From Argopecten irradians (Eukaryota > Mollusca > Bivalvia > Pectinida > Pectinidae): a stretch of 64,000 nt of DNA. A program made the translations under genes and the position numbers. The DNA is taken from the NCBI RefSeq assembly GCF_041381155.1, contig NC_091142.1, positions 36,939,604 through 37,003,603 on the forward strand, given 5' to 3'. A model generated the notes under the pieces. It made no database searches. It saw only the letters and a program-made list of their open reading frames with translations, and was not told where the DNA came from. Of this stretch, positions 1 to 64,000 are shown piece after piece (position 1 is the first letter of the stretch; each line of letters starts with the position of its first letter).

Positions 1-3000
1 TGGAAATGTTTAATTAGCTGCCACTTACCGAGTGGAATCATTGTTAAATGTTTAATTAGCTGCCACTTACCGAGTGGAATCATTGTTAAATGTTTAATTA
101 GCTGCCACTTACCGAGTGGAATCATTGTTAAATGTTTAATTAGCTGCCACTTACCGAGTGGAATCATTGTTAAATGTTTAATTAGCTGCCACTTACCGAG
201 TGGAATCATTGTTAAATGTTTAATTAGCTGCCACTTACCGAGTGGAATCATTGTTAAATGTTTAATTAGCTGCCACTTACTAAGTGGAATCATTGTTAAA
301 TGTTTAATTAGCTGCCACTTACCGAGTGGAATCATTGTTAAATGTTTAATTAGCTGCCACTTACCGAGTGGAATCATTGTTAAATGTTTAATTAGCTGCC
401 ACTTACCGAGTGGAATCATTGTTAAATGTTTAATTAGCTGCCACTTACCACCGAGTGGAATCATTGTTAAATGTTTAATTAGCTGCCACTTACCGAGTGG
501 AATCATTGTTAAATGTTTAATTAGCTGCCACTTACCAGTGGAATCATGTGGAAATCATTGTTAAATGTTTAATTAGCTGCCACTTACCGAGTGGAATCAT
601 TGTTAAATGTTTAATTAGCTGCCACTTACCGAGTGGAATCATTGTTAAATGTTTAATTAGCTGTTACCAGTGGAATCATTTAGCTGCCATAAGTTTTAAT
701 AGCTGCCACTTACCGAGTGGAATCATTGTTAAATGTTTAATTAGCTGCCACTTACCGAGTGGAATCATTGTTAAATGTTTAATTAGCTGCCACTTACCGA
801 GTGGAATCATTGTTAAATGTTTAATTAGCTGCCACTTACCGAGTGGAATCATTGTTAAATGTTTAATTAGCTGCCACTTACCGAGTGGAATCATTGTTAA
901 ATGTTTAATTAGCTGCCACTTACCGAGTGGAATCATTGTTAAATGTTAAATGTTTATTAGCTGCCACTTACCGAGTGGAATCATTGTTAAATGTTTAATT
1001 AGCTGCCACTTACCGAGTGGAATCATTGTTAAATGTTTAATTAGCTGCCACTTACCGAGTGGAATCATTGTTAAATGTTTAATTAGCTGCCACTTACCGA
1101 GTGGAATCATTGTTAAAATGTTTAGTTAGCTGCCACTTACCAAGTGGAATCATTGTTAAATGTTTAATTAGCTGCCACTTACCGAGTGGAATCATTGTTA
1201 AATGTTTAATTAGCTGCCACTTACCAAGTGGAATCATTGTTAAATGTTTAATTAGCTGCCACTTACCGAGTGGAATCATTGTTAAATGTTTAATTAGCTG
1301 CCACTTACCGAGTGGAATCATTGTTAAATGTTTAATTAGCTGCCACTTACCGAGTGGAATCATTGTTAAATGTTTAATTAGCTGCCACTTACCGAGTGGA
1401 ATCATTGTTAAATGTTTAATTAGCTGCCACTTACCGAGTGGAATCATTGTTAAATGTTTAATTAGCTGCCACTTACCAAGTGGAATCATTGTTAAATGTT
1501 TAATTAGCTGCCACTTACCGAGTGGAATCATTGTTAAATGTTTAATTAGCTGCCACTTACCGAGTGGAATCATTGTTAAATGTTTAATTAGCTGCCACTT
1601 ACCGAGTGGAATCATTGTTAAATGTTTAATTAGCTGCCACTTACCGAGTGGAATCATTGTTAAATGTTTAATTAGCTGCCACTTACCGAGTGGAATCATT
1701 GTTAAATGTTTAATTAGCTGCCACTTACCGAGTGGAATCATTGTTAAATGTTTAATTAGCTGCCACTTACCGAGTGGAATCATTGTTAAATGTTTAATTA
1801 GCTGCCACTTACCGAGTGGAATCATTGTTAAATGTTTAATTAGCTGCCACTTACCGAGTGGAATCATTGTTAAATGTTTAATTAGCTGCCACTTACCGAG
1901 TGGAATCATTGTTAAATGTTTAATTAGCTGCCACTTACCGAGTGGAATCATTGTTAAATGTTAATTAGCTGCCACTTACCGAGTGGAATCATTGTTAATG
2001 TAAATGTTTAATGTTATTAGCTGCCACTTACCGAGTGGAATCATTGTAAATAAATGTTTAATTAGCTGCCACTTACCGAGTGGAATCATTGTTAAATGTT
2101 TAATTAGCTGCCACTTACCGAGTGGAATCATTGTTAAATGTTATAGCTGCCACTTACAGTGGAATCATTGTTAAATGTTATTAGCTGCCACTTACCGAGT
2201 GGAATCATGTTAATGAAAGTTTAAATGTTAGAGCTGCCACATACCGAGTGGAATCATTGTTAAATGTTTAATTAGCTGCCACTTACAGTGGAATCATTGT
2301 TAAATGAATGTTGCCACTTACCGAGTGGAATCATTGTTAAATGTTTAATTAGCTGCCACTTACCGAGTGGAATCATTGTTAAATGTTTAGTTAGCTGCCA
2401 CTTACCGAGTGGAATCATTGTTAAATGTTTAGTTAGCTGCCACTTACCGAGTGGAATCATTGTTAAATGTTTAGTTAGCTGCCACTTACCGAGTGGAATC
2501 ATTGTTAAATGTTTAGTTAGCTGCCACTTAGAGTGAATCATTGTAAATTATTAGCTGCCACTTACCGAGTGGAATCATTGTTAAATATTTAGTTAGCTGC
2601 CACTTACCGAGTGGAATCATTGGTAAATGTTTAGTTAGCTGCCACTTACCGAGTGGAATCATTGTTAAATGTTTAGTTAGCTGCCACTTACCGAGTGGAA
2701 TCATTGTTAAATGATTAGTTAGCTGCCACTTACCAAGTGGAATCATTGGTAAATGTTTAGTTAACTGCCACTTACCAAGTGGAATCATTGTTAAATGTTT
2801 AATTAGCTGCCACTTACCAAGTGGAATCATTGTTAAATGTTTAGTTAGCTGCCACTTACCGAGTGGAATCATTGTTAAATGTTTAATTAGCTGCCACTTA
2901 CCGAGTGGAATCATTGTTAAATGTTTAGTTAGCTGCCACTTACCAAGTGGAATCATTGTTAAATTAAAATGTTTAATTAGCTGCCACTTACCGAGTGGAA

Positions 3001-3181
3001 TCATTGTTAAATGTTTAATTAGCTGCCACTTACCGAGTGGAATCATTGTTAAATGTTTAGTTAGCTGCCACTTACCAAGTGGAATCATTGTTAAATGTTT
3101 AATTAGCTGCCACTTACCAAGTGGAATCATTGTTAAATGTTTAGTTAGCTGCCACTTACTTAGTGGAATCATTGTTAAATG
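1..3181 (-). repeat. 42-bp minisatellite, about 75 copies, built from the TBL2 exon 8 / 5' splice-site junction
   Basis: Near-perfect 42-bp tandem units run from the window edge into TBL2 exon 8. Read on the minus strand, each unit is 22 nt matching the end of exon 8 (CATTTAACAATGATTCCACT + 2 nt) followed by 20 nt matching the first intron bases (GTAAGTGGCAGCTAACTAAA). Every intact copy therefore carries a consensus 5' splice site, usually CTCG|GTAAGTGG or CTTG|GTAAGTGG. Copies from about 1 to 1960 are almost identical. Those near the exon (about 2000-3180) are more varied, with deletions and G/A variants (ttagttagc against ttaattagc), as expected if the interior is homogenised by unequal exchange. 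Since 42 is a multiple of 3, long open frames (MIPLGKWQLIKHLT on minus) persist by geometry; they are not genes. The array occupies the start of a TBL2 intron whose far end lies outside the window. Confidence 0.95.
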
Positions 3182-6100
3182 AAAAGCTGTACACTCCAGC
3201 ACTGTGTCCCTTGAGTTCAAACGCCCTCTTGGTATCTATATAATCTCCACTTTTACTGAAGCCTACCTCCCATACCTTTACATCTGGTGTAAAGCCTGTT
3301 AACAACACCAGAAACACATCAGATAAATACAGTAAAACTTAAATAAATATCAAATCAATTTTGAAATATTTTCCTGGCGTTTAGATTTATTGGATTTTAG
3401 AAGAAACATGAATATAGCGAAAACAAAAACCCTGCACAAATAATTTAGTCTGCCAGAAGTTGTGAAGTAACAGTAGTTGTGATTTAGAAAATAAATTTTG
3501 CATCTGATGAAACACATTATTTCCACTTAAACAAAACAACACCATCATGAAATTTTCATCAGTAGCTCTAGACATTCGGAAATCTTGATGCAAAGTAGAA
3601 TATGCACACCATCACAACTGTTCCGTCATGACTTCTGGTTGGGTCCCAGTACAGTATACCATAGACCTTAAAGACTATTTATAGATAATGGTAAGGTTAG
3701 ATGGACAGATAAACAAACATTTTACCTGAAGAGGCGACAAATCGTCCACATGGTGAGACGCAGGCAAACGAGTTGTTCACCTGATGTGTGTCTAGTGTCT
3801 CCAGAACTTCACCTGTGAGGTAAGTAGTGAAATATTTTATTAGAATCAATTCATGTACATGTAATGAAATTAAATATATATTCCGACCTTGAATATATAG
3901 ACAGAGAATCTCTGAATTAAATATGAGTCCATATAAATTGAGTAAGAGTTTATGAATGGCAAAATAGTCAGAGAAAATCTGTATCCCAGTCTCGGTCACT
4001 AATTTAAAACATAAACTTCTGGTTAGGTTTTATCATCAAAATCTCAAATTGATTTTCAAATATTATTTTGGTACGTACATCAAATAATCAATAAATACCA
4101 AATTATCAATCATATCTTGATAAGTTGAAAATTGTAGATATTCACCTTTGATGGTCCAAATAATAATAGTCGTATCACTTCCACACGACATGACATACTT
4201 CCCGTTACTTGCTATACCTATATTTATGATATCGGCTTGGTGTTTCTGAAATGACAATGTAAACATGTTTGTACCGTAAATTCCTGGGAAAACATATGCG
4301 GAAGCATGGTGAAACTTTGATTTATGCAAACATTCAATTTAAATGCATAATGTTAATTAAAAAGAATACAAGAGGCCCATGGGCCTTAACGGTCATCTGA
4401 CTATTAGTACAATACAACATAGTCATTTAAAGATTTTAGCCTATTTGACCCCTATGACCTTGAATGAAAATCAAGGTCATTCATTTGAACAAACTTGGTA
4501 GCCCTTCATCCCAGCAAGCGACAGGCTTAATATCAGGTCTCTAGGCCTCTTAGTTATTCACAAGATTTTGTTTAAAGGATTTTAGCCTATTTGACCCCTG
4601 TGACCTTGAATGAAGGTCAAGGTCATTTATTTGAACAAACTTGCTAGCCCTTCATCCCAGCATCCTACAGGCCCAATATCAGTACCCTAGGCCTTCTGGT
4701 TCTTGAGAAGAAGTCGTTTAGAGATTTTAGCCTTTTTGACCCTTGTGACCTTGAATGAAGGTCAAGGTCATTCATTTGAACAAACTTGGTAGCCCTTCAT
4801 CCCAGCATGTCACAGGCCCAATATCAGTACCCTGGGCCTTCTGGTTCTTGAGAAGAAGTCGTTTAAAGATGTTAGCCTTTTTGACCCCTTTGACCTTGAA
4901 TGAAGGTCAAGGTCATTTATTTGAACAAACTTGGTAGCCCTTCATCCCAGCATCCTACAGGCCCAATATCAGGTCTCTAGACCTCTTAGTTATTCACAAG
5001 AAGTTGTTTAAAGGATTTTAGCCTATTTGACTCCTTTGACCTTGAATGAAGGTCAAGGTCATTCATTTGAACAAACTTGCTAGCCCTTCATCCCAGCATG
5101 TCACAGGCCCAATATCAGTACCCTGGGCCTTCTGGTTCTTGAGAAGAAGTTGTTTAAAGAATTTAGCCTTTTTGACCCCTTTGACCTTGAATGAAGATCA
5201 AGGTCATTCATTTGAACAAACTTGGTAGCCCTTCATCCCAGCATCCTACAGGCCCAATATCAGTACCCTAGGTCTTCTGGTTCTTAAGAAGTTGTTTAAA
5301 GGATTTTATCCTATTTGACCCCTGTGACCTTGAAGGAAGGTCAAGGTCATTTATTTGAACAAACTTGGTAGCCCTTCATCCCAGCATGTCACAGGCCCAA
5401 TATCAGTACCCTGGGCCTTCTGGTTATTGAGAAGAAGTCGTTTAAAGATTTTAGCCTTTTTTAACCCTTTGACCTTGAATGAAAGTCAAGGTCATTCATT
5501 TGAACAAACTTGGTAGCCCTTCATCCCAGCATGTCACAGGCCTAATATCAGTACCCTGGGCCTTCTGGTTCTTGAGAAGAAGTTGTTTAAAGAATTTAGC
5601 CTTTTTGACCCCTTTGACCTTGAATGAAGATCAAGGTCATTCATTTGAACAAACTTGGTAGCCCTTCATCCCAGCATCCTACAGGCCCAATATCAGGTCT
5701 CTAGGCCTCTTAGTTATTCACAAGAAGTTGTTTAAAGGATTTTAGCCTATTTGACCCCTGTGACCTTGAATGAAGGTCAAGGTCATTCATTTGAACAAAC
5801 TTGGTAGCCCTTCATCCAAGCAACCTACAGGCCAAATATGAGTACCCTGGGCCTTCCGGTTATTGAGAAGAAGTCGTTTGAATGAAAAGTTTACGGACGG
5901 CGGACGACGACGGACGGTGCATGATGACAATAGGTCATCCTGACCCTTTGGGTCAGATGACCTAAAAATGGAAAATTCGGTCCAACAAAAACGTTTTAAT
6001 ACTGTTAACTAACTGATTTTTGTGGTGACTTATTTTCATGTTTTCATGCACAATGCCATTTTCACAACAATTTACTTTCACAATTTACAGGTAAACGCTC

Positions 6101-21928: not shown

Positions 21929-22330
21929 TCAAGCATCAGCAAGAATATTGTCTTTCCCTTTGAAATGTTTGATGTCAAGATTGTACTCTTGCAAAGTCAA
22001 ACTCCACCTGAGAATTCTATGATTTTTGGTTTTGATTTTCCCAATGAAAGTCAAAGGGTTGTGGTCGGTGAAGACCAACACAGGCACAACTGTAGTGCAG
22101 AGATACACATCAAATTGGTTCAAGGCCAAAATCGGCGCTAAACATTCTTTCTCCATGGTGGAAAAATTTCCCTGATGTATGACAAACTTTTTCGAGAAAT
22201 AACAAATTGGATGGTCAATTTGTTCTGTACCTTCTTGCATCAAAACAGCACCAACACCTACATCGCTGGCATCAACAAACAGTTAAAACTCTTTATTAAA
22301 ATTTGGAGCAGTCAGAACTGGTGAGTTTGA
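21929..22330 (-). pseudogene. RNase H region of the Gmr1-like element
   Basis: Gypsy-type RNase H. The frame contains VDASDVGVGAVL, then PICYFSKKF, STMEKECLAPILAL, VFTDHNPLTFI and LDIKHFKGKDNILADA, the standard motif series. A TAA interrupts the frame just before VDASD (near 22280), so it is disabled. It lies between RT and the 3' LTR. Confidence 0.85.
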
Positions 22331-23300
22331 TATTATGGCTTTCAATTTCTCAAAGGCAGACTTACATTCGACTGACCAGCCAAATTTAACTTTTTTCTTT
22401 AACAAAACAGTAAGTGGAGCTGCTGTAACAGAGAAATTTTAACATAATTTTCTGTAGTATCCAGCCATACCAAGAAATCTCATCAGCTCTCTCTTGCTTC
22501 CAGGAGTTGGAAAATCTATAATTGCTTCTACTTTGGCCTGAACAGGTTTAACCTGCCCCTGTCCTACAACATGGCCTAAAACTTCAACAGCTCCATGACA
22601 AAATTCACATTTCAGTCAGTTTACAGTCAATTTCATGGTAGTGAGTCTCTCGAAGAATTCGCGAATCCCGCGTAGATGGTCTTCCCACGTGTCATGGTAG
22701 TTGATGGCGTCATCGATGTATCCATCGCAGCCTTCCAGGTCTGATATCACGCTGTTCTGAAGACGTTGAAATGTTGCCGTGCCAATCTTCATATCAAATG
22801 GCATAACTTTGAACTGGTACAAACCTCGCAAGGTTACAAATACCGACACCTCTTTAGCTCTTTCTGTTAATGGCACCTGTCAATATACTTTCAACAGGTC
22901 AAACTTGCTTACATACTTGGCTTTGCCAACTTTGTCAATACACGAGTCAATCCTTGGAATCGGATAAGTGTCTGCTTTACTGGACAGAGTTTACTTTTCT
23001 GAAGTCAGTACAGAACAGAACCGGTATGTCTTGTCTGACTTTGGCACCATAACACACGGAGAGCTCCATTCATTTTTGCTTGGTTCAATAATATCATTGT
23101 CCAACATGCATTGAATTTCTTTCTTTAAATGTTCTTCTTTCAAAGGATTGACACGGTAAGGATGTTGCTTGGCAGGTGGGTCGTCCACATCCACGTCGTG
23201 ATAGATAGCATCTTTTTTGTCTGGTGTATCCGGAAACAAATGTTTAAACTCAAGTATCAGCTCTTTCAGTTCATTTTGCTCCTTTTCCCATAGATGACAT
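22331..23300 (-). pseudogene. Reverse transcriptase region of the Gmr1-like element
   Basis: The frame around 23220-22995 carries HPYRVNPLKEEHLKKEI, IIEPSKNEWSSPCVMVPK, typical of the gypsy RT N-terminus. After a frame change, 22876-22616 has GLYQFKVMPFDMKIGTATFQ and the catalytic GYIDDAI. The thumb region (22600-22340) is split by stops. RT copies RNA into cDNA in the particle. It starts directly after the integrase C-terminal region, confirming IN-RT order. Confidence 0.88.
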
Positions 23301-23388
23301 AGTTTCTTGTCCAAGTTCGCGAGCACATCTGAGTTCCGTAACTTAACACCACAGTCTAAACCTACATCTTGTACACCCCCATCTAAGT

Positions 23389-24420
23389 CTAATTTACAAT
23401 TATCAGCTGTACTCTCACTGTGTGATGGTACAGAGACCAAAGCAGCAATAGGTGGAGAGGTCTTGCTCTCTTCTTTACATATTTCGTAAGCATTAATTGA
23501 GTTTTCTTGCGCCTCCCTGGAGTTTGTACAATGTAGTTTACATCATCGACCTTTTTGTCACCAACATAAGGTCCGAAATATCTAGCTTGCAAAGGCTGAC
23601 CTGGTATTGGTAATAGAGCCAAAATTTTGTCATCTGGATCAAAACTTCTTACACGGGCATCTGTAGAAACGGCAAGATTTTCCTTTGCCAACTCACATGC
23701 CCTTGTCAATCTTTGCTTAAAGTTAGACACATACTCTAAGAGATTCACTTTAGAATCTTCGTCCAAAATTTTGTCTTTCAAAATTTTCAAAGGACCACGT
23801 ACAGTGTGTCCAAACACAAGTTCGAAAGGATTGAAACCAAGAAATTCTTATACAGATTCTCTAACGCCAAACAACAACATGTGTATACCTTCGTCCAAGT
23901 CTCTTTTTTTTTCAAAACAATAAAATCTCATCATATTCTTCAATGTCTGATGAAAACGTTCTAAAGCACCTTGAGACTCTGGATGATAAGCACTAGACTT
24001 ATACTGCTTGATCTGGAGCTGGTACATGACTTGTTGAAAAATACCAGACATGAAATTCGAACCTTGGTCCGATTGGACAGCTTTTGGAAGACCAACCAGT
24101 GTAAAGAATTTAACCAAAGCCTTGACAATATTAGGGGCCTTAATATTCCTGAGTGGAATGGCTTCAGGGAAGCGTGTGGAAGCACATATAATGGTTAAAA
24201 GATACTCATTCCCAGACTTAGTTTTGGGTAGAGGACCTACACAGTCTATAATGACTCTACTAAATGGTTCCTCAAATGCTGGAATGGGGTGCAAAGGTGC
24301 CATAGGGATTTTCTGATTAGGTTTCCCTACCATCTGACAAGTATGACAAGACCTACAAAAATGAGCCACATCCCGTTTCAACTTGTGCCAAAAGAAGTGA
24401 TCTAAGATTCTGTTAAGTCT
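23389..24420 (-). pseudogene. Integrase with GPY/F-like C-terminus of the Gmr1-like element
   Basis: The zinc-binding end is CRSCHTCQMVGKPNQ; the core has the triad in VIIDCVGPLP, VQSDQGSNF and SSAYHPESQGALERFHQ (DD35E intact). The segment at 23817-23500 contains ARYFGPYVGDKKVDDVNYIV, a GPY/F-like module. A frame break near 23820-23848 separates core and C-terminus. It inserts cDNA into host DNA. Being upstream of RT is unusual for Ty3/gypsy proteins. Confidence 0.9.
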
Positions 24421-24711
24421 TTGTCACACCTAGATGCCCTGCCATGAGTACGTCATGAGACAAACTCAGAATATCTTGCCTATACCTCGGTGGGACAACT
24501 ATTTGATTGACAACCTTCCAGTCTTCTTCGGGAGACACATCAGGAGGCGCTACTTACGTATCAACACACCTGACCTACGAAAGTAGCAAACTGCTAACCT
24601 AACCCTGGACTATAATGATCCAGAACTACTGCAACATCAGAAACCTTCTTACTCATTGAACGTGTTACAGCACAAGATCGGGAATATACCAGGAAATTCG
24701 TGTTGAATAGT

Positions 24712-28907: not shown

Positions 28908-29897
28908 TTAAATTTTACAAAAGAAAGGTACTCTTCTTCTTTTTTCGAGGTGTGTGGTAGCACCTCTTTGTATGGTATAATAATCACTACATGGAACCAC
29001 ACCTTTGATAAGCTTACTTTTGGTATTGTTGATGTAACTGTAGTTATTGTCCCAATAAGGGTTAGCTTTAGCTTTAGGCGCGTCTTGGTGGACTGCCAGA
29101 AGACTTTTTGTCGCGTCAATAACTACGCATCCATTTCGTCGAGCGTCATAAACTATCCAGTTATCGTAATAATATCGGCCGATTTGAACTTCCGGTACAT
29201 TTCTCCAGTGGTAGTTAGGCGTGGTGATGAAGTAGTCTATTCCATAGGTAGGCGGCATCAGCGTCCCTCGTTTCCCTGCCTTAGTTATACTTGGCCATGA
29301 CCTTGCTTCTTCACTCGTGATCTTAGTTTTATCCATTCGACGGCCAACTACCATGTACGTCTTATTGACCAGTGAGGATGACTTTGTTATAGCTTGTAGC
29401 GTGTCAATAAACGAACCAGTAAAAAGTAAATCTCCGTTCGAGAATCCAAAGAGCCTTGAATTCGGATATAACTCCATTGCTTCCAAGAACATATACTTCA
29501 AAACGGCACCGCCTTTTATTGGTCGTTTGAGCGGTAGCACGGTCCAACCTAACTGTTGATACTCATCTTGAATTGTATCATTGGTAAACAATACGATGTT
29601 TGCATAGGGTCGTAGACTCGGCCAGTTACGTAACGTGTTGTTATAGACGCCGTACCTTTCTGGAAATGTTTTCCAGGATGTAAACAATGTGATCAGAGGA
29701 GTTTTTGATGTAGTGTGTTTTCGGGTTTCTTCTTTTGGTGTAGTAATTTGTCGCGTTTCTACTTTTGGTGCAGTAACTTGACGGACTACTTTTGTTGTCC
29801 AAGGATTGTGAGAAACAATATGTGAGGTTAGAAAAATCAAAATGAAACACGTGCAAATTCCAACCAGGTATTTCTTCCTTGATCCGCAGAGTGTCAT
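28908..29897 (-). CDS. Type II membrane glycosyltransferase-like protein, copy 1 (329 aa)
   Basis: Single coding exon. N-terminal anchor at about residues 11-28 (YLVGICTCFILIFLTSHIV), then a Thr/Lys/Glu-rich stem with three 10-residue repeats (VRQVTAPKVE, TRQITTPKEE, TRKHTTSKTP), then a GT-A-like catalytic domain: LITLFTSWKTFPERY, NIVLFTNDT, the FSNGDLLFTGSF motif in the place of a DXD-type metal site, YGIDYFITT and YYYDNWIVYDARRNG, ending VIDATKSLLAVHQD. These last motifs recur in an uncharacterised nucleotide-sugar-transferase-like family. The expected site of action is the Golgi lumen. An acceptor (TATTTCCAG) at 29913 on minus suggests a 5' UTR intron 14 nt upstream of the ATG. Paralog at 41697-42725. 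Donor and acceptor sugars cannot be stated. Confidence 0.85.
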   Translation of the reverse strand: MTLCGSRKKYLVGICTCFILIFLTSHIVSHNPWTTKVVRQVTAPKVETRQITTPKEETRKHTTSKTPLITLFTSWKTFPERYGVYNNTLRNWPSLRPYANIVLFTNDTIQDEYQQLGWTVLPLKRPIKGGAVLKYMFLEAMELYPNSRLFGFSNGDLLFTGSFIDTLQAITKSSSLVNKTYMVVGRRMDKTKITSEEARSWPSITKAGKRGTLMPPTYGIDYFITTPNYHWRNVPEVQIGRYYYDNWIVYDARRNGCVVIDATKSLLAVHQDAPKAKANPYWDNNYSYINNTKSKLIKGVVPCSDYYTIQRGATTHLEKRRRVPFFCKI

Positions 29898-30115
29898 TGT
29901 TTTTCGTGACTCCTGGAAATATAAATAGAAACCACATAAATATATTTTACTTCTTATTAGTGTATATTATTTTCTTTTGTGAGCACGAATGTATCAAATG
30001 AGGTCACATAATTAAAGACGCCATTATACCCAGAAAAGACTATTTCTTTTCTACGACCCTAAGGTATGTTTATGCACAAAAGTAAGCTTATCATCGAGAA
30101 ACAACAAAACTATTA
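29898..30115 (-). promoter_or_regulatory. Upstream region of glycosyltransferase copy 1, shared with copy 2
   Basis: The upstream sequence with cgaccctaaggtat and aaaagtaagcttat recurs at 42726-42915 before the paralog, so the duplication included the leader and probable promoter. Confidence 0.55.
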
Positions 30116-41696: not shown

Positions 41697-42725
41697 TTAA
41701 ATTTGACAAAAACGGGGTAATGTTTTACTTGTTTCGAGGTGTGTGGTAGCACCTCTTTGTATGGTATAATAACCACTACATGGAACCACACCTTTCATAA
41801 GCTTACTTTTGGTATTGTTGATATAACTGTAGTTATTGTCCAAATAAAGGATACCTTTAGCTTTAGGCGCGTCTTGATGGACTGCCAGAAGACTTTTTGT
41901 CGCGTCAATAACTACGCATCCATTTCGTCGCGCGTCATAAACTATCCAGTTGTCGTAATAATATCGGCCGATTTGAACTTCCGGTACATTTCTCCAGTGG
42001 TAGTTAGGCGTGGTGATAAAGTAGTCGATTCCATATGTAGGCGGCATCAGCGTCCCTCGTTTCCCTGCCTTAGTTATACTTGGCCATGACCTTGCTTCTT
42101 CACTCGTGATCTTAGTTTTATCCATTCGACGGCCAACTACCATGTACGTCTTATTGACCAATGAGGATGACTTTGTTATAGCTTGTAGCGTGTCAATAAA
42201 CGAGCCAGTAAAAAGTAAATCTCCGTTCGAGAATCCAAAGAGCTTTGAATTCGGGTATAACTCCATTGCTTCCATGAACATATACTTCAAAACGGCACCG
42301 CCTTTGATCGATCGTTTGAGCGGTAGCACGGTCCAACCTAACTGTTGATACTCATCTTGAATTGTATCATTGGTAAACAATACGATATTAGCATAGGGTC
42401 GTAGACTCGGCCAGTTACGTAACGTATTGTTATAGACACCGTACCTTTCTGGGAATGTTTTCCAGGATGTAAACAATGTGATCAGTGGAGATTTTGTTGA
42501 AGTGTGTTTTTGGGTTTCTTCTTTTGCTGCAGTTACTTGATGAGTTTCTGCATATGTTGTTGAAGGTTGACGGACTTCTGCTTTTGTTGTAGTAGGTTGA
42601 CGGACGTTTGCTTTTGTTGTCCAAGGATTTTGAGGAACATTATGTGATGTTAGGAAAATGAAAATGAAAATGAAACACGTGCAAATTCCAACAAGGAATT
42701 TCTTACTTGATCTGCAGATTTTCAT
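41697..42725 (-). CDS. Type II membrane glycosyltransferase-like protein, copy 2 (342 aa)
   Basis: Paralog of 28908-29897. The catalytic part (from LITLFTSWKTFPERY to LLAVHQDAPKAK) differs at only a few residues, whereas the stem and C-terminal tail differ much more. The anchor is at about residues 10-28 (FLVGICTCFIFIFIFLTSH). The stem has four 10-residue repeats (VRQPTTTKAE, VRQPSTTYAE, THQVTAAKEE, TQKHTSTKSP) against three in copy 1. The NGDLLF metal-site-like motif and YYYDNWIVYDARRNG are kept, so it is probably functional. The tail after LAVHQD reads GILYLDNNYSYI in place of ANPYWDNNYSYI. A pyrimidine-rich acceptor (TTTTTTTCCCAG) at 42744-42742 on minus suggests a 5' UTR intron. Function as for copy 1: Golgi sugar transfer, substrate unknown. 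Confidence 0.85.
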   Translation of the reverse strand: MKICRSSKKFLVGICTCFIFIFIFLTSHNVPQNPWTTKANVRQPTTTKAEVRQPSTTYAETHQVTAAKEETQKHTSTKSPLITLFTSWKTFPERYGVYNNTLRNWPSLRPYANIVLFTNDTIQDEYQQLGWTVLPLKRSIKGGAVLKYMFMEAMELYPNSKLFGFSNGDLLFTGSFIDTLQAITKSSSLVNKTYMVVGRRMDKTKITSEEARSWPSITKAGKRGTLMPPTYGIDYFITTPNYHWRNVPEVQIGRYYYDNWIVYDARRNGCVVIDATKSLLAVHQDAPKAKGILYLDNNYSYINNTKSKLMKGVVPCSGYYTIQRGATTHLETSKTLPRFCQI

Positions 42726-42915
42726 CGTTTTGTCTTGACTCCTGGGAAAAAAATCAAATAAGTATGAATATATATTTTTTTTCTATTAATAAGTGTACAC
42801 TATTTTCTCTAGGGAGCACGAATATATCGAATAAGGTCGACGCTATTATACACGACCCTAAGGTATTTTTTACGCATAAAAGTAAGCTTATACACGAGAA
42901 ACTACAAAACGATCC
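42726..42915 (-). promoter_or_regulatory. Upstream region of glycosyltransferase copy 2
   Basis: Shares cgaccctaaggtat, aaaagtaagcttat and gagaaac blocks with 29898-30115, the probable leader/promoter carried by the duplication. Confidence 0.5.
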
Positions 42916-52100: not shown

Positions 52101-55100
52101 ACCCTGTATGTTGTATTCCATATGTTACTTGTATGAGAGTTACCTGTACTAGACCCTGTATGTTGTATTCCATATGTTACTTGTATGAGAGTTACCTGTA
52201 CTAGACCCTGTATGTTGTATTCCATATGTTACTTGTATGAGAGTTACCTGTACTAGACCCTGTATGTTGTATTCCATATGTTACTTGTATGAGAGTTACT
52301 GTACTTACTAGACCCTGTATGTTGTATTCCATATGTTACTTGTATGAGAGTTACCTGTACTAGACCCTGTATGTTGTATTCCATATGTTACTTGTATGAG
52401 AGTTACCTGTACTAGACCCTGTATGTTGTATTCCATATGTTACTTGTATGAGATTACCTGTACTAGACCCTGTATGTTGTATTCCATATGTTACTTGTAT
52501 GAGAGTTACCTGTACTAGACCCTGTATGTTGTATTCCATATGTTACTTGTATGAGAGTTACCTGTACTAGACCCTGTATGTTGTATTCCATATGTTACTT
52601 GTATGAGAGTTACCTGTACTAGACCCTGTATGTTGTATTCCATATGTTACTTGTATGAGAGTTACCTGTACTAGACCCTGTATGTTGTATTCCATATGTT
52701 ACTTGTATGAGAGTTACCTGTACTAGACCCTGTATGTTGTATTCCATATGTTACTTGTATGAGAGTTACCTGTACTAGACCCTGTATGTTGTATTCCATA
52801 TGTTACTTGTATGAGAGTTACCTGTACTAGACCCTGTATGTTGTATTCCATATGTTACTTGTATGAGAGTTACCTGTACTAGACCCTGTATGTTGTATTA
52901 CCATATGTTATGTTTATGAGAGTTACCTGTACTAGACCCTGTATGTTGTATTCCATATGTTACTTGTATGAGAGTTACCTGTACTAGACCCTGTATGTTG
53001 TATTCCATATGTTACTTGTATGAGAGTTACCTGTACTAGACCCTGTATGTTGTATTCCATATGTTACTTGTATGAGAGTTACCTGTACTAGACCCTGTAT
53101 GTTGTATTCCATATGTTACTTGTATGAGAGTTACCTGTACTAGACCCTGTATGTTGTATTCCATATGTTACTTGTATGAGAGTTACCTGTACTAGACCCT
53201 GTATGTTGTATTCCATATGTTACTTGTATGAGAGTTACCTGTACTAGACCCTGTATGTTGTATTCCATATGTTACTTGTATGAGAGTTACCTGTACTAGA
53301 CCCTGTATGTTGTATTCCATATGTTACTTGTATGAGAGTTACCTGTACTAGACCCTGTATGTTGTATTCCATATGTTACTTGTATGAGAGTTACCTGTAC
53401 TAGACCCTGTATGTTGTATTCCATATGTTACTTGTATGAGAGTTACCTGTACTAGACCCTGTATGTTGTATACCATATGTTACTTGTATGAGAGTTACCT
53501 GTACTAGACCCTGTATGTTGTATACCATATGTTACTTGTATGAGAGTTACCTGTACTAGACCCTGTATGTTGTATTACCATATGTTACTTGTATGAGAGT
53601 TACCTGTACTAGACCCTGTATGTTGTATTCCATATGTTACTTGTATGAGAGTTACCTGTACTAGACCCTGTATGTTGTATTCCATATGTTACTTGTATGA
53701 GAGTTACCTGTACTAGACCCTGTATGTTGTATTCCATATGTTACTTGTATGAGAGTTACCTGTACTAGACCCTGTATGTTGTATTCCATATGTTACTTGT
53801 ATGAGAGTTACCTGTACTAGACCCTGTATGTTGTATTCCATATGTTATTGTATACAGTTACCTACTAGACCCTGTAGTGTATGTTACTTGTGAAGTTACT
53901 AGACCCTGTATGTTGTATTCCATATGTTACTTGTATGAGAGTTACCTGTACTAGACCCTGTATGTTGTATTCCATATGTTACTTGTATGAGAGTTACCTG
54001 TACTAGACCCTGTATGTTGTATTCCATATGTTACTTGTATGAGAGTTACCTGTACTAGACCCTGTATGTTGTATTCCATATGTTACTTGTATGAGAGTTA
54101 TCTGTACTAGACCCTGTATGTTGTATTCCATATGTTACTTGTATGAGAGTTACCTGTACTAGACCCTGTATGTTGTATACCATATGTTTACTTGTATAGA
54201 GTTACCTGTACTAGACCCTGTATGTTGTATTCCATATGTTACTTGTATGAGAGTTACCTGTACTAGACCCTGTATGTTGTATACCATATGTTACTTGTAT
54301 GAGAGTTACCTGTACTAGACCCTGTATGTTGTATACCATATGTAACTTGTATGAGAGTTATCTGTACTAGACCCTGTTGTTGTATTCCATATGTTACTTG
54401 TATAAGAGTTACCTGTACTAGACCCTGTATGTTGTATTCCATATGTTACTTGTATGAGAGTTACCTGTACTAGACCCTGTATGTTGTATTCCATATGTTA
54501 CTTGTGTATGAGAGTTACCTGTCCTAGACCCTGTATGTTGTATTCCATATGTTACTTGTATGAGAGTTACCTGTACTAGACCCTGTATGTTGTATTCCAT
54601 ATGTTACTTGTATGAGAGTTACCTGTACTAGACCCTGTATGTTGTATTCCATATGTTACTTGTATGAGAGTTACCTGTACTAGACCCTGTATGTTGTATT
54701 CCATATGTTACTTGTATGAGAGTTACCTGTCCTAGACCCTGTATGTTGTATTCCATATGTTACTTGTATGAGAGTTACCTGTACTAGACCCTGTATGTTG
54801 TATTCCATATGTTACTTGTATGAGAGTTATCTGTACTAGACCCTGTATGTTGTATTCCATATGTTACTTGTATAAGAGTTACCTGTACTAGACCCTGTAT
54901 GTTGTATACCATTGTAACTTGTATGAGAGTTACCTGTACTAGACCCTGTATGTTGTATTCCATATGTTACTTGTATGAGAGTTACCTGTACTAGACCCTG
55001 TATGTTGTATTCCATATGTTACTTGTATGAGAGTTACCTGTACTAGACCCTGTATGTTGTATTCCATATGTTACTTGTATGAGAGTTACCTGTACTAGAC

Positions 55101-56979: not shown

Positions 56980-58570
56980 ATGAGTAAACATGTACACTCT
57001 AAATAGGATGTGAATAAATTTCTTCCTGTGAATCCCCTGACGTCATAGCACATAGTCAATATTGTGTTTACAGTACTCACGATCCAGTTCATAGGTATAC
57101 CTAAAACGTAGTTTATACACAACAGAGTGGCGTGAACACTCAGAGAGACGGTTGGTAGATTGAAATTGTATAAAAATAACAGCCAACTAATTCAACAAAC
57201 ACTGTTTAGATATATTCCAAATAGATTCAGAAACTTTCAGATCTTGTAGCGTAATTTTTATAATATGTTGCTATTTCAAAATTATTGACAATCTAACCTA
57301 GCTATAAGCTGAAAAAATATGCCATAAACTTGTTTAAATAATTCAAAATCGTATAGTTTTCTTCAATTTAGGGAAACTAAAACACTTTGAAAAGTCAGCA
57401 ATATTGAATTTATATTTACATATAGGAGAGAGGGGGCAAATACTACATTTAATATAACAAAAATATCACAGCTCATTTGATAAGAAAATGTTATGCATGT
57501 ATATGCCGTAATTATCATACCGGGTACTAACGAACCTTTGATAAGGTTTTCATACCACCACCACCAATTCAGAATTACAATACTTACAATGCATAGGGTT
57601 TAATTTTACGCCAAAATATCATCATGTTTTCGTGTATAATGGAGAGGAATGAGTACATACCATTAAAGTGATTTAAACAACAAACCTGTAAATGTTTTTA
57701 ATAAAGTCTGAAGAAAAAATAAAACGTAAAACTTTTCGTCCAGTTTTGACATATTTAATTTGTATACGTCCGATATGATTTTCATTCATTAGAACAATCA
57801 GGAAACATACATTATCTGTTATATTACATATATTATCTGTTATATTACATATATTATCTGTTATATTTCGTTTTTTACATATATTATCTGTTATATTTCC
57901 GTTTTTTACGAAGTAGGCACCCCTGCATAGGAAGTAATTAATTAAACTATATGCATGTATCACAAGGAACAACAAAATATGATGTAATTTTGCACTGAGA
58001 AAGGATACACAGTTTTTCTTTTATTACTTTGATGGGGTATTGTCATATATGCAAACCCTTAAGAACTGGAATAAATAATCATAAACGATTTTATACTATA
58101 CTTAGTACAGTAAAATAGTTAATGTGTGTATATGGAAAAAATACCTTGTGGGGAATCCCCTGACGTCATATATTTATACCAAATATAGGCTACACCCCAG
58201 TATTTCGATAATGTACAGTGTCATTTGAAGCATTGATTTGACGGGAGTGTATACCTAAAGAGTAGAAATCTTACGACGGCTTTTCGGAGACAAGACTTTT
58301 TACTTAAAAATGAAAGAATTGTGATAAGTCAGGTATGTATTCAGCGGTACCAATTTGAGATTTTAAACATCAATTCTCGTCTGTCGACAATGCATACAGT
58401 CAAATATTTCCACTCCCTACTGATAGAAAAGTTGTATCTATTCTTTTTATTTCATTTTTGTCGTCAATTTTGTGAGTATCTGCAACGAATTGTGGCATTT
58501 ATAAGCTTTTCTAGACTGATAAATTTAACCGTCAATTAATAGCCTGATAAATTCAATAGTCCATTCTGGA
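56980..58570 (+). repeat. Three-copy duplication, second copy with leader block
   Basis: The order of blocks (cgtgaacactcag; atatgccataaact; gcactgagaaaggatac; gaatcccctgacgtcat; catttgaag; gtattcagcggtaccaattt) is the same as at 58640-59790 and, with insertions, at 38430-41480. It ends with AGTCAG|GTATGT at 58332, a splice donor. Confidence 0.75.
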
Positions 58571-58639
58571 ACAGTCTAAATTTAGCTTTGGAAGTTTTTG
58601 CATTCTTGACCTACATTTATGTCAATACATCGATGTAGG

Positions 58640-59790
58640 CGAGCTATTGTAGCTTGAAATTAATTGTTGTATGAAAATTACGGCCAATTAATTGAACAAA
58701 CACTGTTTAAAAATATGTCTAATAGTTTCAGAAACATTCATTTCTCGTTGTGAAATTTTATATAGAGTGTTTGTGATTTCAAAAATATTGCCAACATTAC
58801 GTAGCTATATATTAGCTGAAAAAGATATGCCATGAACTTGTACATTTTATTCAGAATAGTTAAGTTTTCTTCAATTCAGGGACACTAAAGCACTCTGAAA
58901 AATAAACATTTATAAAATATGTATTTATAGAAACACAAATGTCACAGCTCAATGACTCATTTCCGCAGGGTTGTTGACATACATGATTTAATGCATAAAA
59001 TACATAAAACAAGAATTTTAGAACAATCAGTAAACTTACTTAGCACAGTATATTATTTATTATATTTCCATTTATTACGAAATAGTTACCACGAGTTAGG
59101 AAGTAATGAAACTTCCGGAATTGAATCTGCTATCACAAGGAACAACAGAATACGATGTAATTTTGCACTGAGAAAGGATACATAGTTTTTCTTTTGTCAC
59201 TTTGATGGCGTATTGTCATATACGCAAAACCTTTAAAAAATTGAAAAAATAATCAAAAACGATTTTATACTATACTTAGTACAGTAAAATAGTAAATGTG
59301 TGTATATGGAAAAATACGTTGTGGGGAATCCCCTGGCGTCATAGATATGTACCCAATATACATCCCAGCATTTCGATAATGTACAGTGTCATTTGAAGTA
59401 TTGATTGATCGGGAGTGTAGAACTAAAGAGTAGGAATCTTACGCCGACACTTACACTTTTCGGAGACAAGAACTTTGTACTTGAACTTGTTCGATACACA
59501 TGTTTAAAGTCAGGTATGTATTCAACGATGCCTATTAGAGGTTTTAACCATTAAATCTCGTGTGTCGATATCGCATACAGTCAAATATTGTCACTCCCTT
59601 CTGATATAAAAGTTGTGTCAAAAGTTTTATTTCATTTTTGTCGTCAATTTTGTGATTATAATATTCAACGAATTTGGCATTTATAAGCTATTCTCGACTG
59701 CCAGATTTAACCGTCAATTAATAGTCTGATGAATTCAATAGTCCATTCTGGAACAGTCTAGATATAGTGTTGGAAAGTCTCGTCATGGGT
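58640..59790 (+). repeat. Three-copy duplication, third copy with leader block
   Basis: Same block order as 56980-58570. Nearest copy to the RHIM gene, with donor AAGTCAG|GTATGT at 59513. A gaatcccctggcgtcat element sits about 180 bp before the donor. Confidence 0.75.
59390..59513 (+). other. Candidate noncoding first exon of the RHIM gene
   Basis: The block ends at CAG|GTATGT, and the next acceptor on plus is ctctacag|gaaaactccg (60014|60015), the start of the exon containing the ATG. The two upstream duplicates at about 58222-58332 and 41338-41420 could be alternative or dead promoters. The transcription start is unknown. Confidence 0.4.
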
Positions 59791-60014
59791 GACCTACATT
59801 TATGTTAACACACCCATGTAGGTGAGCTATTGTATGTTATGCATTTATGGCCCCGATGACAGTGAGACGTGAAGATTTATTTACCTGAAGGTTTTTCCTA
59901 TTTCCTAAGCCCTATTTCCCAAGGGCTTGCCCGATAGAATTATTACATCTGCTTGCAGATCACATTGATATGTGAATTTAATAATCCACTAATCTGTCAT
60001 ATTTTCCTCTACAG

Positions 60015-60092: not shown

Positions 60093-63000
60093 ATGGCAAC
60101 TTCAAATTCCAAAAAAGGTAAGCATTTCTAGCACACGGGCTATTAACTAAACCAAATGCATAAAAACATCTTAGCAAATATGTATATCATAATTTCATGT
60201 TTATCAAAATTATTGGAAAATGTTTTAGAACAAAAATAAAAGATTTATAAGTATGTAATCAAAACTGGCCAGGCGCATGTTAAGAAATGAACAGATAAAA
60301 AATGAAATGTTCTATCAATGTGTCATTTAACCATGAAGAGACGGTCAGTAAAATAATAAAGGAGTACATGACTCAAAATCACATTGTATTTTGAAATTTA
60401 GGAAGAAGCTTATCTTAGAAATTAGAGTTTAAAGATGCTCCACCGCTGACAAATGGTATTTTTTCACTATCAAAAACAGGAGCTGACGATTTAGTATTTT
60501 TCTTCAGTTACAAACGTTACGTACTTTACACCATTACCACCATCGAAAAGTTTGAGCTTCTAATTTTACTTCAAGTTGAAAATATAAGAAATAATTAATT
60601 GCATCCCGAAAACAATCCGTGGCACTATATCCTATATGAAATGAAGTACTGATTGCGCATGCACAAAAGGCAAAATAAATTATCTTATATATTTTTTTGT
60701 GTTAATTAGACATAAATATTCAAGATTAAACATCAATTATTTTTCTAATGATGAATGCCATTTATGCTCCGTCGGCGGTGGAGCATCTTTAATAAAATAA
60801 AAATTACAAATAATGTTAATTTAAAAGTGGACACAAATGAGATATGCATTTGTTTTTTTGTACGGAATAATGCTTTAAGTTTTCTATTAGGAGGAGTGGT
60901 TTTCAATATCACAAACTATGGTCAGCAGGGAATTCAAATAGGAGACTCCAACACTATGCAGATATCTGAACTATTATCAGAACAAGCAGGTTTGTACTGA
61001 CCATTGCATAAGTGAGTGGTTTATTGTCTACATGAGATATCCGAACTGTTATCAGAACAAGCAGATTTTTACTGACCACTGACCAGTATATTAGTTAATG
61101 GTTTATCGCCTGCATAGATATCAGAACTGTTATCAGAACAAGCAGATTTTTACTGACCACTGACCAGTATATTAGTTAATGGTTTATCGCCTGCATAGAT
61201 ATCAGAATCGTTATCAGAACAAGCAGGTTTGTACTGACCATTGCAATAGTTATTGGTTTATCGTCTACATGAAATATCTGAAATGTTAACAGAACAAGCA
61301 GATTTTTACTGACCAGTAAATTAGTTAACGGTTTATCGCCTACATGAGATATCTGAATTGTTATCAGAACAAGCAGGTTTGTACTGACCATTACATTAGT
61401 TAGTGGTTTATCGCCCACATGAGATATCTGAACTGTTATCAGAATAAGCAGGTATGTACTGTTAGTGGTTTATCGCCGAAGTGTCAGGATGACATATAGT
61501 CATAATGTTTATTCGTTGTCGTCCGCCGTGCGCCGACCGTAAACTTTCAAACTTTTCAATCTTCTTCTAAGTTCTACCAGTACGATTCGGCTGAAACATG
61601 GTCCCATCAAAGGGTTGTTATTTTTCGGGTAGATCCGAAATCCAAGATGGTCGCCACAGCCGTCATCTTGAAATCACATTTTGAACTTCTTCTCAAGTTC
61701 TACCTGTGCGATTTGGCTGAAACCTGCCTGAAATGATCCTAAAATTGTCTCAAGATTTTTGAGTCGATCCGAAATCTAAGATGGCCGCCACAGCTGCCAT
61801 CTTGAAAACACTTTTTGAACTTCTCCTCAAGTTCTACCTGTGCGATTTGGCTGAAACCTGCCTGAAATGATCCTGACATGATCCAGACAAAGTGTTGCTA
61901 TTTTTCGGGTCGATTCAAAGTCCAAGAAGGCCGCCACAATTAATTATCTGTACGACTATTGCCAAGGTAGTCAGATGACCGTTAAGGCCCTTGAGCATCT
62001 TGTTCCCGTTTCGAATCTTCTTTGTCAGTGTTTAATCATATCATTTCTTCATCAGTAATAATCTGCATAAGACAATACCTCGCTTCCTTAAGGTAGCAGG
62101 CTTCCTTATAAGAATTTTGAGCGATGGCGAGTCGTTGATATTGATGTGTTTTTATAAAGCTTTTGATACATATATTTCAGGGAAAACATTGAGTTTTTAC
62201 AGATAAGCGTAGATTCATTTCCTTTATACAATTGATGTTGATAGATTGATTCTGCTCTGGATTTATTGAGTAAAGTCTGAAGGATTCTCCATTTTATTAC
62301 TTACGTTAATCTCCTCTGTTCCGTGTTTCGTATTTATAGTTGGATGGAACAGCTGTCCGATATATCGCAGGTTACTCTCTATACGATGTATAAAGTCACA
62401 TTGATTACTAGTATGATATTTATAGGTTGATAAATTTACATTTTCCAGATGTCAAAAAGGGAGGATTAGAGAAAGATGGAATTCTCAAGGGTGCACTCGG
62501 CATTATTCTAAATCCGAGACATACTCAGGCTCTGAACCCAATGCCATTGAAAATGTTAGAACAGAAATTTACAGAAACATTTGGAAACCATCTAACCGAC
62601 GGGAAGAAAACATTTACGGATGCATCTGGCTTGTCCCTGTTGTCATTCCTACAAAACAATACTGACACGTACGAAATATTCACAACAGCAAAGGGGAGAG
62701 TTATGGTGAAGCAAAAACTAATTCGACCTGAGACAGACTGCATGCAAGGTCGCAGTTCCGAACCACAGACAAACGCCTCTGATGGTCAGAGCAGGGACAC
62801 GCGCTGCAGCAATAAACAGAGGAGAAAGGTAACCGAAACAAATGAGAGAAAACCCAAGTCACCTATAGAGCATACACGTCAAGACGACAATGGTTCTGAT
62901 GAGTGGACGGTTGTGTGTAGAGGCAAGAATAAAAAGACGAAAACAGTCAAAGAACAAAAGAGTGAAAATACTCAGGCTGATGAAAGGACAAGCCTCAGAA

Positions 63001-64000
63001 CGCAGAAAAGCGGAAATGAAAATGAGGATGCAACATTTATAAGCACTCTTGTAAAGAGCAGAAACAGGCATGACTTAAAATGCTTGCAATCTGAATTGGT
63101 TTATGTAGGGAATTATCTGCTGTTTACCATAGATATCGTAAGTATGTGGAATACGCCGAAAGAGGCCTCTTCATTCATACTTCTTGGGGCGGTTGACAGC
63201 GGGACAGACAATTTACCTTCTATAACAGGAATAAAGAAAAGTTACACGCCTGCACACTTTAAAGGGTTCTTTCTTACCGAATGTGTAGTTGGCAGTATCC
63301 CAGACTTTTCGTACTCTGAAGTCACTGTAGGGTCTGATTTAGTGGGTGTGATTGAGATATTCAGATGCCAAGGTAATACATCGCCATCTGTTTTCAAATG
63401 CAACCGAGCAAACAGCACCATTGCAACACGTGAAGGAGATATGTGGATTCGAAAAGATAATGTGCCTGTCGTTTGCAAACCAACCGATGACAGATTTGCA
63501 GAAGTGTATAGTTGGTTTGCGAAAGATTATGGAGAAGATAACTGTCATGAACCGAACTCTGAAGCGAAGCAGTGCACAAGGCAAGGTATTTCTCTTCCAC
63601 AACACCAAGAGCCTATTTTGAAGACGAAACGAAATGAAGCGACAGTATGCACAACCGTGAATCAAATGTTAGATGCGGTAAACTACTTTCGAAAGGGTCA
63701 TTTCATTCTATTGGCAGGTGATGTACCAAGTGTGTCCACAAATATTGGGGCAATCGCATCTGTACCCTGGTTGACCGTCTTTGACTTTGATCCTTACAGC
63801 AGAGATTGTGGACTTCTAGACTCTAATGAAGAACTGATGTCCAAATCGACATCACTTCACATCACAACATGGAAGACTATCGATAAACCGGTATCGGAAT
63901 ACGGAACAAACTGGTGTTTCATATGCGGATCTAGGGATGATCCTGAAAGTCGGCCATGTACAGAAATTACAGAAGATGTGCGAAGTTGGAACCGAAAAAT
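60093..64000 (+). CDS. RHIM - LOTUS-like - AlbA_2-like - SIR2-like protein (SAMD9-type), 5' part
   Basis: Exons 60093-60117, 60891-60989, 62449-beyond 64000; phases 1,1 match and at least 558 codons are open. Domains: RHIM at residues 22-33 (GIQIGDSNTMQI, fitting the (I/V)Q(I/L)GxxNxM amyloid core of RIPK1/RIPK3/ZBP1/TRIF). A LOTUS/OST-HTH-like winged helix lies at about 50-130 (LEQKFTETFGNHL, SGLSLLSFLQNN, IFTTAKGRVMV). A basic, polar linker spans about 134-235. An AlbA_2-like domain is at about 245-385 (NTPKEASSFILLGAV, LVGVIEIF, MWIRKDNVPVV). Then comes a region resembling the SAMD9/SAMD9L SIR2-like part at about 440-558 (NIGAIASVPWLTVFDFDPYS, WCFICGSRDDPESRP). In SAMD9 the AlbA-type domain is a tRNA nuclease and a STAND NTPase follows (known); the latter would lie beyond the window. 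No SAM domain is seen; RHIM takes the N-terminal place. Probable cytosolic immune or cell-death sensor (inference). Confidence 0.82.
60433..60788. mobile_element. TTAA-flanked MITE, copy 3 (RHIM gene intron 1)
   Basis: 356 bp, TIR AGATGCTCCACCGCTGAC, flanked by TTAA at 60429-60432 and 60789-60792; inserted about 100 bp upstream of the RHIM exon acceptor. Confidence 0.9.
60957..61478 (+). repeat. ~75-84-bp minisatellite, 7 copies, built from the RHIM exon 5' splice-site junction
   Basis: The first copy is the end of the RHIM exon (agatatctgaactattatca, gaacaagcag) plus its donor gtttgtactgacc and about 45 nt of intron ending ggtttatcgtctacatg. Six further copies follow in the intron. Copies 4 and 6 keep GCAG|GTTTGT, copies 2, 3 and 5 have GCAG|ATTTTT (donor lost) and the last has GCAG|GTATGT, a stronger donor than the exon's own. 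Confidence 0.92.
61478..62005 (-). mobile_element. Second member of the GGTCATCTGAC family, with different internal repeats
   Basis: Reverse orientation relative to 4368-5963: starts with gtcaggatgacatatagtca and the cgtcgtccgccgt tail, ends with gtcagatgaccgttaaggcc. In between are three ~137-bp units (gttctacctgtgcgatttgg, ctgaaacctgcctgaaatga; aagatggccgccaca), unrelated to the internal unit of the first element. Lies in intron 2 of the RHIM gene. Confidence 0.78.

Follow-up and report, generated by a model that had tools for sequence, protein, structure and literature searches.

The 64,000-nucleotide stretch of DNA analysed here (the window; scallop Argopecten irradians, contig NC_091142.1, positions 36,939,604 to 37,003,603 of the forward strand) ends inside a gene that starts at position 60093 and that represents the 5' part of an apparently intact bivalve gene of the SAMD9 family. 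A preliminary description of this DNA had proposed a single spliced frame in which a RHIM core is joined to a LOTUS-like winged helix, an AlbA_2-like domain, and a SAMD9-type SIR2-like region, and rebuilding the splicing over 60093-64000 confirmed this frame. Exons 1, 2, and 3 (Table 1) are joined in phase 1 at both junctions through GT-AG sites, in-frame stops stand just before the ATG, and the spliced product comprises 558 residues, with its C-terminal end still open at the end of the window. The 517 stop-free codons of exon 3 have a chance probability of 9.7e-16 at the exon's own composition and 8.7e-18 at flank composition, which rules out a chance open reading frame (ORF); no second copy of the gene was found within the window. 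The identity of the gene and its architecture (i.e., RHIM, LOTUS-like winged helix, disordered linker, AlbA_2, and SIR2-like region) are very probably correct, being backed by relatives, profiles, and fold matches, and the arrangement recurs in several molluscs.

Table 1. Features of the SAMD9-family gene, in window coordinates
Feature	Position	Strand	Description
Exon 1	60093..60117	+	MATSNSKK plus one base; upstream in-frame stops; donor GTAAGC
Exon 2	60891..60989	+	RHIM cassette; 99 bp, 33 codons, phase 1-1 symmetric; homologous stretch in P0002
RHIM core I-Q-I-G-D-S-N-T-M	60932..60958	+	Residues 23-31 of the spliced protein
Minisatellite, 75-81 bp units	60960..61461	+	Units copy the exon 2 3' end and donor region into intron 2
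Exon 3	62449..64000	+	No stop before the end of the window; encodes the LOTUS-like domain, the linker, AlbA_2, and the beginning of the SIR2-like region; remaining gene past 64000
LOTUS-like winged helix	62469..62726	+	Exon-3 residues 7-92
Charged linker, low-confidence, probably disordered	62727..63017	+	Exon-3 residues 93-189; predicted local distance difference test (pLDDT) below 50
SLFN/AlbA_2 domain	63009..63542	+	Exon-3 residues 187-364; nuclease signature not intact
SAMD9-type SIR2-like region, N-terminal part	63660..63998	+	Exon-3 residues 404-516; matched by the bacterial profile

Relatives and membership in the SAMD9 family

The 558-residue spliced piece retrieved nothing from the protein database, most likely because full-length relatives lay outside the length range of that search; a search that admitted full-length proteins identified nine relatives at an expectation value (E) ≤1. 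These include a Mizuhopecten yessoensis protein named "Sterile alpha motif domain-containing protein 9-like" (E 7e-161; 52% identity, with 100% of the exon covered), proteins from Pecten maximus (56% identity), Ylistrum balloti (P0002; 48%), and the chiton Liolophura sinensis (29%), P0004-P0006 and P0008 with 28-33% identity, and a bacterial-looking relative (P0009; E 0.02) that shares 94% identity with the bacterial locus L001. When a profile of eight of these proteins was used for a further search, this added the unionids Sinanodonta woodiana and Potamilus streckersoni (P0010 and P0011) and the oyster Saccostrea cucullata (P0012); we refer to P0001-P0008 and P0010-P0012 as the 11 mollusc-type relatives. 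A genome scan identified 12 bacterial loci (L001-L012) in Pseudomonadales, Chlorobium, Streptomyces, Planctomycetota, Dehalococcoidia, and others, 10 of which (L001-L007 and L009-L011) were used to build a bacterial profile, with the partial matches L008 and L012 excluded. The bacterial spread of SAMD9-like AlbA_2-SIR2-nSTAND proteins thus extends beyond the actinomycetes emphasised in the 2017 Mekhedov abstract (PMC5445408). No relative of the gene was found in viral contigs. As a separate observation, the RHIM of the annotated Ylistrum balloti protein P0002 is preceded, in residues 1-295, by the DNA-binding and DDE domains of a Tc5-type transposase, through either capture of a transposon or fusion in the gene model.

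AlbA_2 followed by a variant SIR2-like domain, the arrangement that marks the SAMD9 family, was found in the window protein. Searched against the PDB, the profile of eight relatives matched six distinct SAMD9 sequences (E 4e-29 to 2e-20), and the strongest part of the alignment extended from the SIR2-like region into the P-loop; the remaining matches at E ≤1 were two ribosomal proteins (E 0.08 and 0.84). The 10-locus bacterial profile scored 92.7 bits on the window exon (E 1.2e-27; best of 1000 shuffles, 6.2), and its AlbA_2 and SIR2-like parts alone scored 50.0 and 42.5 bits, respectively; the AlbA/SIR2 similarity on which the preliminary description had made its reading depend was thus found. 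Over full length, each of the 11 mollusc-type relatives reached 408-485 bits with a bacterial profile, compared to 1.8 for the highest of 550 shuffles, which bears out their placement in the SAMD9 family. These relatives also all carry the P-loop HxPGxGGTT, the corresponding position of the window gene lying past 64000; as this matches the unusual P-loop published for the SAMD9 family, in which GGT/S replaces GKT/S (PMC5445408), it further supports membership.

With regard to the STAND, TPR, and OB domains that the preliminary description had proposed to look for past 64000, the relatives have the P-loop, and their C-terminal part scored 72-125 bits against the bacterial C-terminal profile in 11/11 cases (best shuffle, 5.1), but neither TPR nor OB, both part of the published SAMD9-family architecture, was called by Pfam in the 11 mollusc-type relatives. 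The five bacterial proteins scanned matched Pfam SLFN_AlbA_2 and nSTAND_NTPase5 (E 5e-10 to 3e-15 and 0.012 to 1e-10, respectively), and three of them had weak TPR calls. The bacterial full-length profile spans residues 315-1691 of the 1731 residues of P0010, so that what the molluscs add to the core is the N-terminus and a short, cysteine-rich tail; weak Pfam zinc-ribbon matches are all that the tail gives, in P0005, P0010, and P0011 (E 0.006-0.26). No Pfam match to the sterile alpha motif (SAM) domain was obtained in the window protein or the 11 mollusc-type relatives; in the SAMD9 family this domain is limited to vertebrates (PMC5445408), and it is not a defining family feature outside them. 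The suggestion that the RHIM replaces SAM fits the published variation of N-terminal modules in this family, but given the restriction of SAM to vertebrates, an actual replacement probably did not take place in this lineage.

The RHIM and the LOTUS-like domain

The RHIM core tetrad V/I-Q-V/I-G is present in the window protein as IQIG at 60932. While the bare tetrad alone is not notable (three seen versus 2.2 expected), the pattern [VI]Q[VILC]GxxNx[ML] was observed once in the window versus 0.025 times expected from 200 Markov sequences. A hidden Markov model (HMM) of four non-scallop RHIMs, two of them near-identical, placed the window ORF at the top of 2014 ORFs (17.9 bits versus 6.3 for the runner-up), and 24 of 34 aligned positions are identical between the window and the Ylistrum RHIM stretch. 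The search against RHIM models that the preliminary description had proposed gave a divided result, in that Pfam RHIM (PF12721) did not match the window protein, whereas it matched both unionid relatives (E 0.0018 and 0.0028; 18.2 and 17.6 bits against a cut-off of 20 bits) and the HMM of relatives placed the window first. By a relaxed pattern, a RHIM-like core occurs once per protein upstream of the LOTUS-like domain in five of the seven relatives whose models reach there, as IQVG in Ylistrum (P0002) and both unionids (P0010 and P0011), FQIG in the chiton, and IAIG in the oyster; the strict pattern was found within the first 150 residues of 0/12000 shuffled proteins. Among the models that do not reach this region, P0006 begins at the LOTUS-like domain, P0001 at a methionine that lies within the RHIM exon, and both P0003 and P0008 further on. 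The oyster protein P0012 presents a further architecture, in which a weak, sub-threshold match to the Death domain (E 0.0076) precedes the RHIM-like motif and a LOTUS-like region, and AlbA_2 is absent.

Fold comparison gave matches to LOTUS and to SAMD9, and a LOTUS winged-helix fold was assigned to the domain at the start of exon 3; a plain winged helix of unspecified kind was rejected on the basis of the LOTUS matches. As Pfam OST-HTH had no match in the window, the domain is named LOTUS-like; WH_Egal was matched in P0007 at E 0.074. A single-sequence AlphaFold2 model was uninformative (mean pLDDT 31).

A number of observations weigh against this architecture and family assignment. Foldseek on its own gave no match at E ≤0.001. 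Pfam AlbA_2 and nSTAND_NTPase5 were each matched in 5/11 mollusc-type relatives (E 8e-5 to 0.11 and 3e-5 to 0.11, respectively), in all cases below the curated cut-offs, and the window protein itself had no Pfam match for any of these domains; phmmer of the window protein against the PDB found nothing relevant, and NCBIfam and PADLOC nothing useful, a PADLOC PDC-S50 match on the AlbA_2 core (E 0.029) being a hint only. The window ends inside the SIR2-like region, the P-loop and C-terminal half being known from relatives alone, and the SIR2-like part and P-loop may be catalytically inert. With regard to the RHIM, P0004 and P0005 extend upstream of the LOTUS-like domain yet lack the motif, which in the oyster and the chiton deviates from the consensus.

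The AlbA_2 signature and readings of the protein's function

In human SAMD9, tRNA cleavage and binding need acidic and basic AlbA_2 residues (PMC12331169), and the preliminary description implied a tRNA-cutting effector here as well. A profile of AlbA_2 parts (A6) matched CbCash (E 2e-6) and gave no sequence alignment to SAMD9, so that the human catalytic residues are not mappable letter by letter; the signature E..[DE][FY]K was used as a proxy for nuclease residues. By the strict pattern, this signature is present in 11/11 bacterial proteins (10 loci and P0009, with L001 and P0009 being near-duplicates) versus 0/11 mollusc-type proteins having AlbA_2 (the window protein, P0001-P0008, P0010, and P0011). 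Near-pattern remnants are seen as E-x5-D-L-K in P0001 and P0002 and as E-x2-D-L without K in the unionids, and the window protein retains D-L-K, with K standing at the leading E position; no remnant was found in the segments compared from the chiton, P0004-P0006, and P0008. As the signature is absent in the mollusc-type proteins compared and human SAMD9 needs such residues, the molluscan AlbA_2 more likely serves for binding than for tRNA cleavage, and the implied tRNA-cutting effector is doubtful.

The best overall explanation, to which we assign a probability of roughly 0.65, is a SAMD9-family STAND-type sensor with RHIM assembly as its output. The LOTUS-like, AlbA_2, and OB-type modules and the TPR-type region would sense foreign or misplaced nucleic acid, upon which the STAND domain would oligomerise and bring the N-terminal RHIMs together; the clustered RHIMs would seed an amyloid-like assembly, which would recruit mollusc RHIM adaptors (i.e., the zebra mussel RIPK1-like protein and CARD-RHIM proteins), leading to NF-kappaB activation or cell death and hence to a putative immune role. 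Such partners are plausible because RHIM proteins of both kinds exist in these animals: in human cells, NF-kappaB is activated by the C-terminus of zebra mussel RIPK1, whose activity is maximal only with the RHIM (PMC12119088), and the CARD-RHIM sequences of bivalves are similar to an iridovirus gene that is itself listed as a horizontal-transfer candidate (PMC12452177). Drawn from sequence comparison, this series of steps has about even odds of being right in its particulars.

Three other readings were weighed against a STAND-type sensor with RHIM output. The RHIM could be an oligomerisation handle only, in the way that SAM polymerises in vertebrate SAMD9, with AlbA_2 tRNA cleavage still the effector, as in human SAMD9. 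We consider this rather unlikely, given the distribution of the strict signature, the K at the leading E position in the window protein, the segments with no remnant, and the oyster relative P0012, which has no AlbA_2 domain at all.

Alternatively, exon 2 could be a skippable cassette, so that the RHIM would be included in some transcripts only and signalling and silent isoforms would result. The phase symmetry of this 99-bp exon means that skipping it would preserve the frame, its 3' end and donor region fall within a minisatellite with further donor-like copies, and the motif is absent from some relatives' models; missing exons are, however, a common annotation error in such models, and we regard this possibility as unlikely. 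Within the minisatellite, GCAG/GT is retained in some units, with GCAGAT in others. Finally, a chance or relict RHIM match in a SAMD9-like gene that is otherwise ordinary and whose N-terminus is unstructured would account for the missing Pfam match in the window protein and for the off-consensus or RHIM-less relatives, but it is very unlikely, and chance was rejected, in view of the 0.025 occurrences expected, the top rank among 2014 ORFs, the same placement in 5/7 relatives, the empty shuffled set, the unionid Pfam matches, and the identity to Ylistrum.

Returning to the sensor with RHIM output, a broader possibility, which we put forward tentatively, is that molluscs run an amyloid-signalling SAMD9 branch in which the ancestral AlbA_2 nuclease would have decayed to a sensor that binds nucleic acid and output would have moved to an N-terminal RHIM on a phase-symmetric exon, whose inclusion or skipping would arm or disarm the protein. 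If true, such a branch would amount to a RHIM pathway with a STAND sensor as its trigger, in place of a kinase or a Z-alpha protein, and would link SAMD9-type translation control with necroptosis-type signalling.

Other features of the window and comparison with known systems

Upstream of the gene, about 0.8 kb of sequence is repeated at 57880-58651 and 59049-59834, with a spacing of 1.17-1.18 kb and segments 78-92% identical, and two more segment pairs are spaced at 1.50 kb. Elsewhere, the window contains a duplicate pair of closely similar, long intronless ORFs on the minus strand (28908-29966 and 41697-42782; 352 and 361 codons, TSWKTFPERYGVYNNTLRNWPSLRPYAN...) with no Pfam match at E 0.01, retrotransposon remains with an RNase H domain and an integrase core (21929-24423, minus strand; Pfam RT_RNaseH and rve), and, at 1-3235 and about 54200-55020, long tandem arrays readable as repetitive ORFs (KCLISCHLPSGIIV units and HMEYNIQGLVQVTLIQVTYGIQ units).

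In the known RHIM proteins considered here, the motif is combined with a kinase, Z-alpha, TIR, Death, or CARD domain. LOTUS/OST-HTH proteins such as TDRD5, TDRD7, MARF1, and Oskar are germline RNA-granule proteins; unlike the scallop protein, they have no SAMD9-type core, and Pfam OST-HTH misses the scallop domain. The V/I-Q-V/I-G tetrad is common to the scallop protein, RIPK1, RIPK3, ZBP1, TRIF, and the bivalve RIPK1-like and CARD-RHIM proteins, but in contrast to the RIPK1-like and CARD-RHIM proteins as described (PMC12119088, PMC12452177), the RHIM here is placed on a SAMD9 core. Compared to vertebrate SAMD9 and SAMD9L, no SAM was found in the scallop protein, which carries an N-terminal RHIM and a LOTUS-like domain and whose nuclease signature is not intact, and the mollusc-type relatives add the cysteine-rich, zinc-ribbon-like tail. 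The bacterial AlbA_2-SIR2-nSTAND5 proteins (L001-L007 and L009-L011) are homologous in the core over nearly the whole length; they start at AlbA_2, with no RHIM/LOTUS N-terminus, and their AlbA_2 signature is intact. Invertebrate SAMD9-family proteins with Death-superfamily N-termini (Mekhedov 2017, PMC5445408) share with the scallop protein both the core and the presence of an N-terminal homotypic-interaction module; the family's N-terminal modules vary among SAM, CARD, Death, Pyrin, and FIIND, and RHIM and LOTUS are not among the modules named in the text consulted. In open-licence PMC literature, a RHIM on a SAMD9-family protein was not found among the matches listed, as judged by title and start of abstract, nor was OST-HTH found together with SAMD9, which agrees, within that scope, with the earlier remark that this architecture was not known as a described one.

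According to published abstracts, SAMD9 and SAMD9L are restriction factors for poxviruses and lentiviruses as well as causes of human disease. On the questions of how this family is triggered and what its N-terminal modules do, a RHIM where SAM or Death domains sit elsewhere predicts that the N-terminus is a polymerising signalling seed; its recurrence in molluscs suggests, at the level of sequence, that this antiviral family may signal via amyloid seeds. RHIM signalling would thereby be placed on a STAND-type protein in molluscs, where RIPK1-like and CARD-RHIM partners exist, and with these partners and the iridovirus CARD-RHIM gene, host-virus conflict over the RHIM could be studied outside vertebrates.

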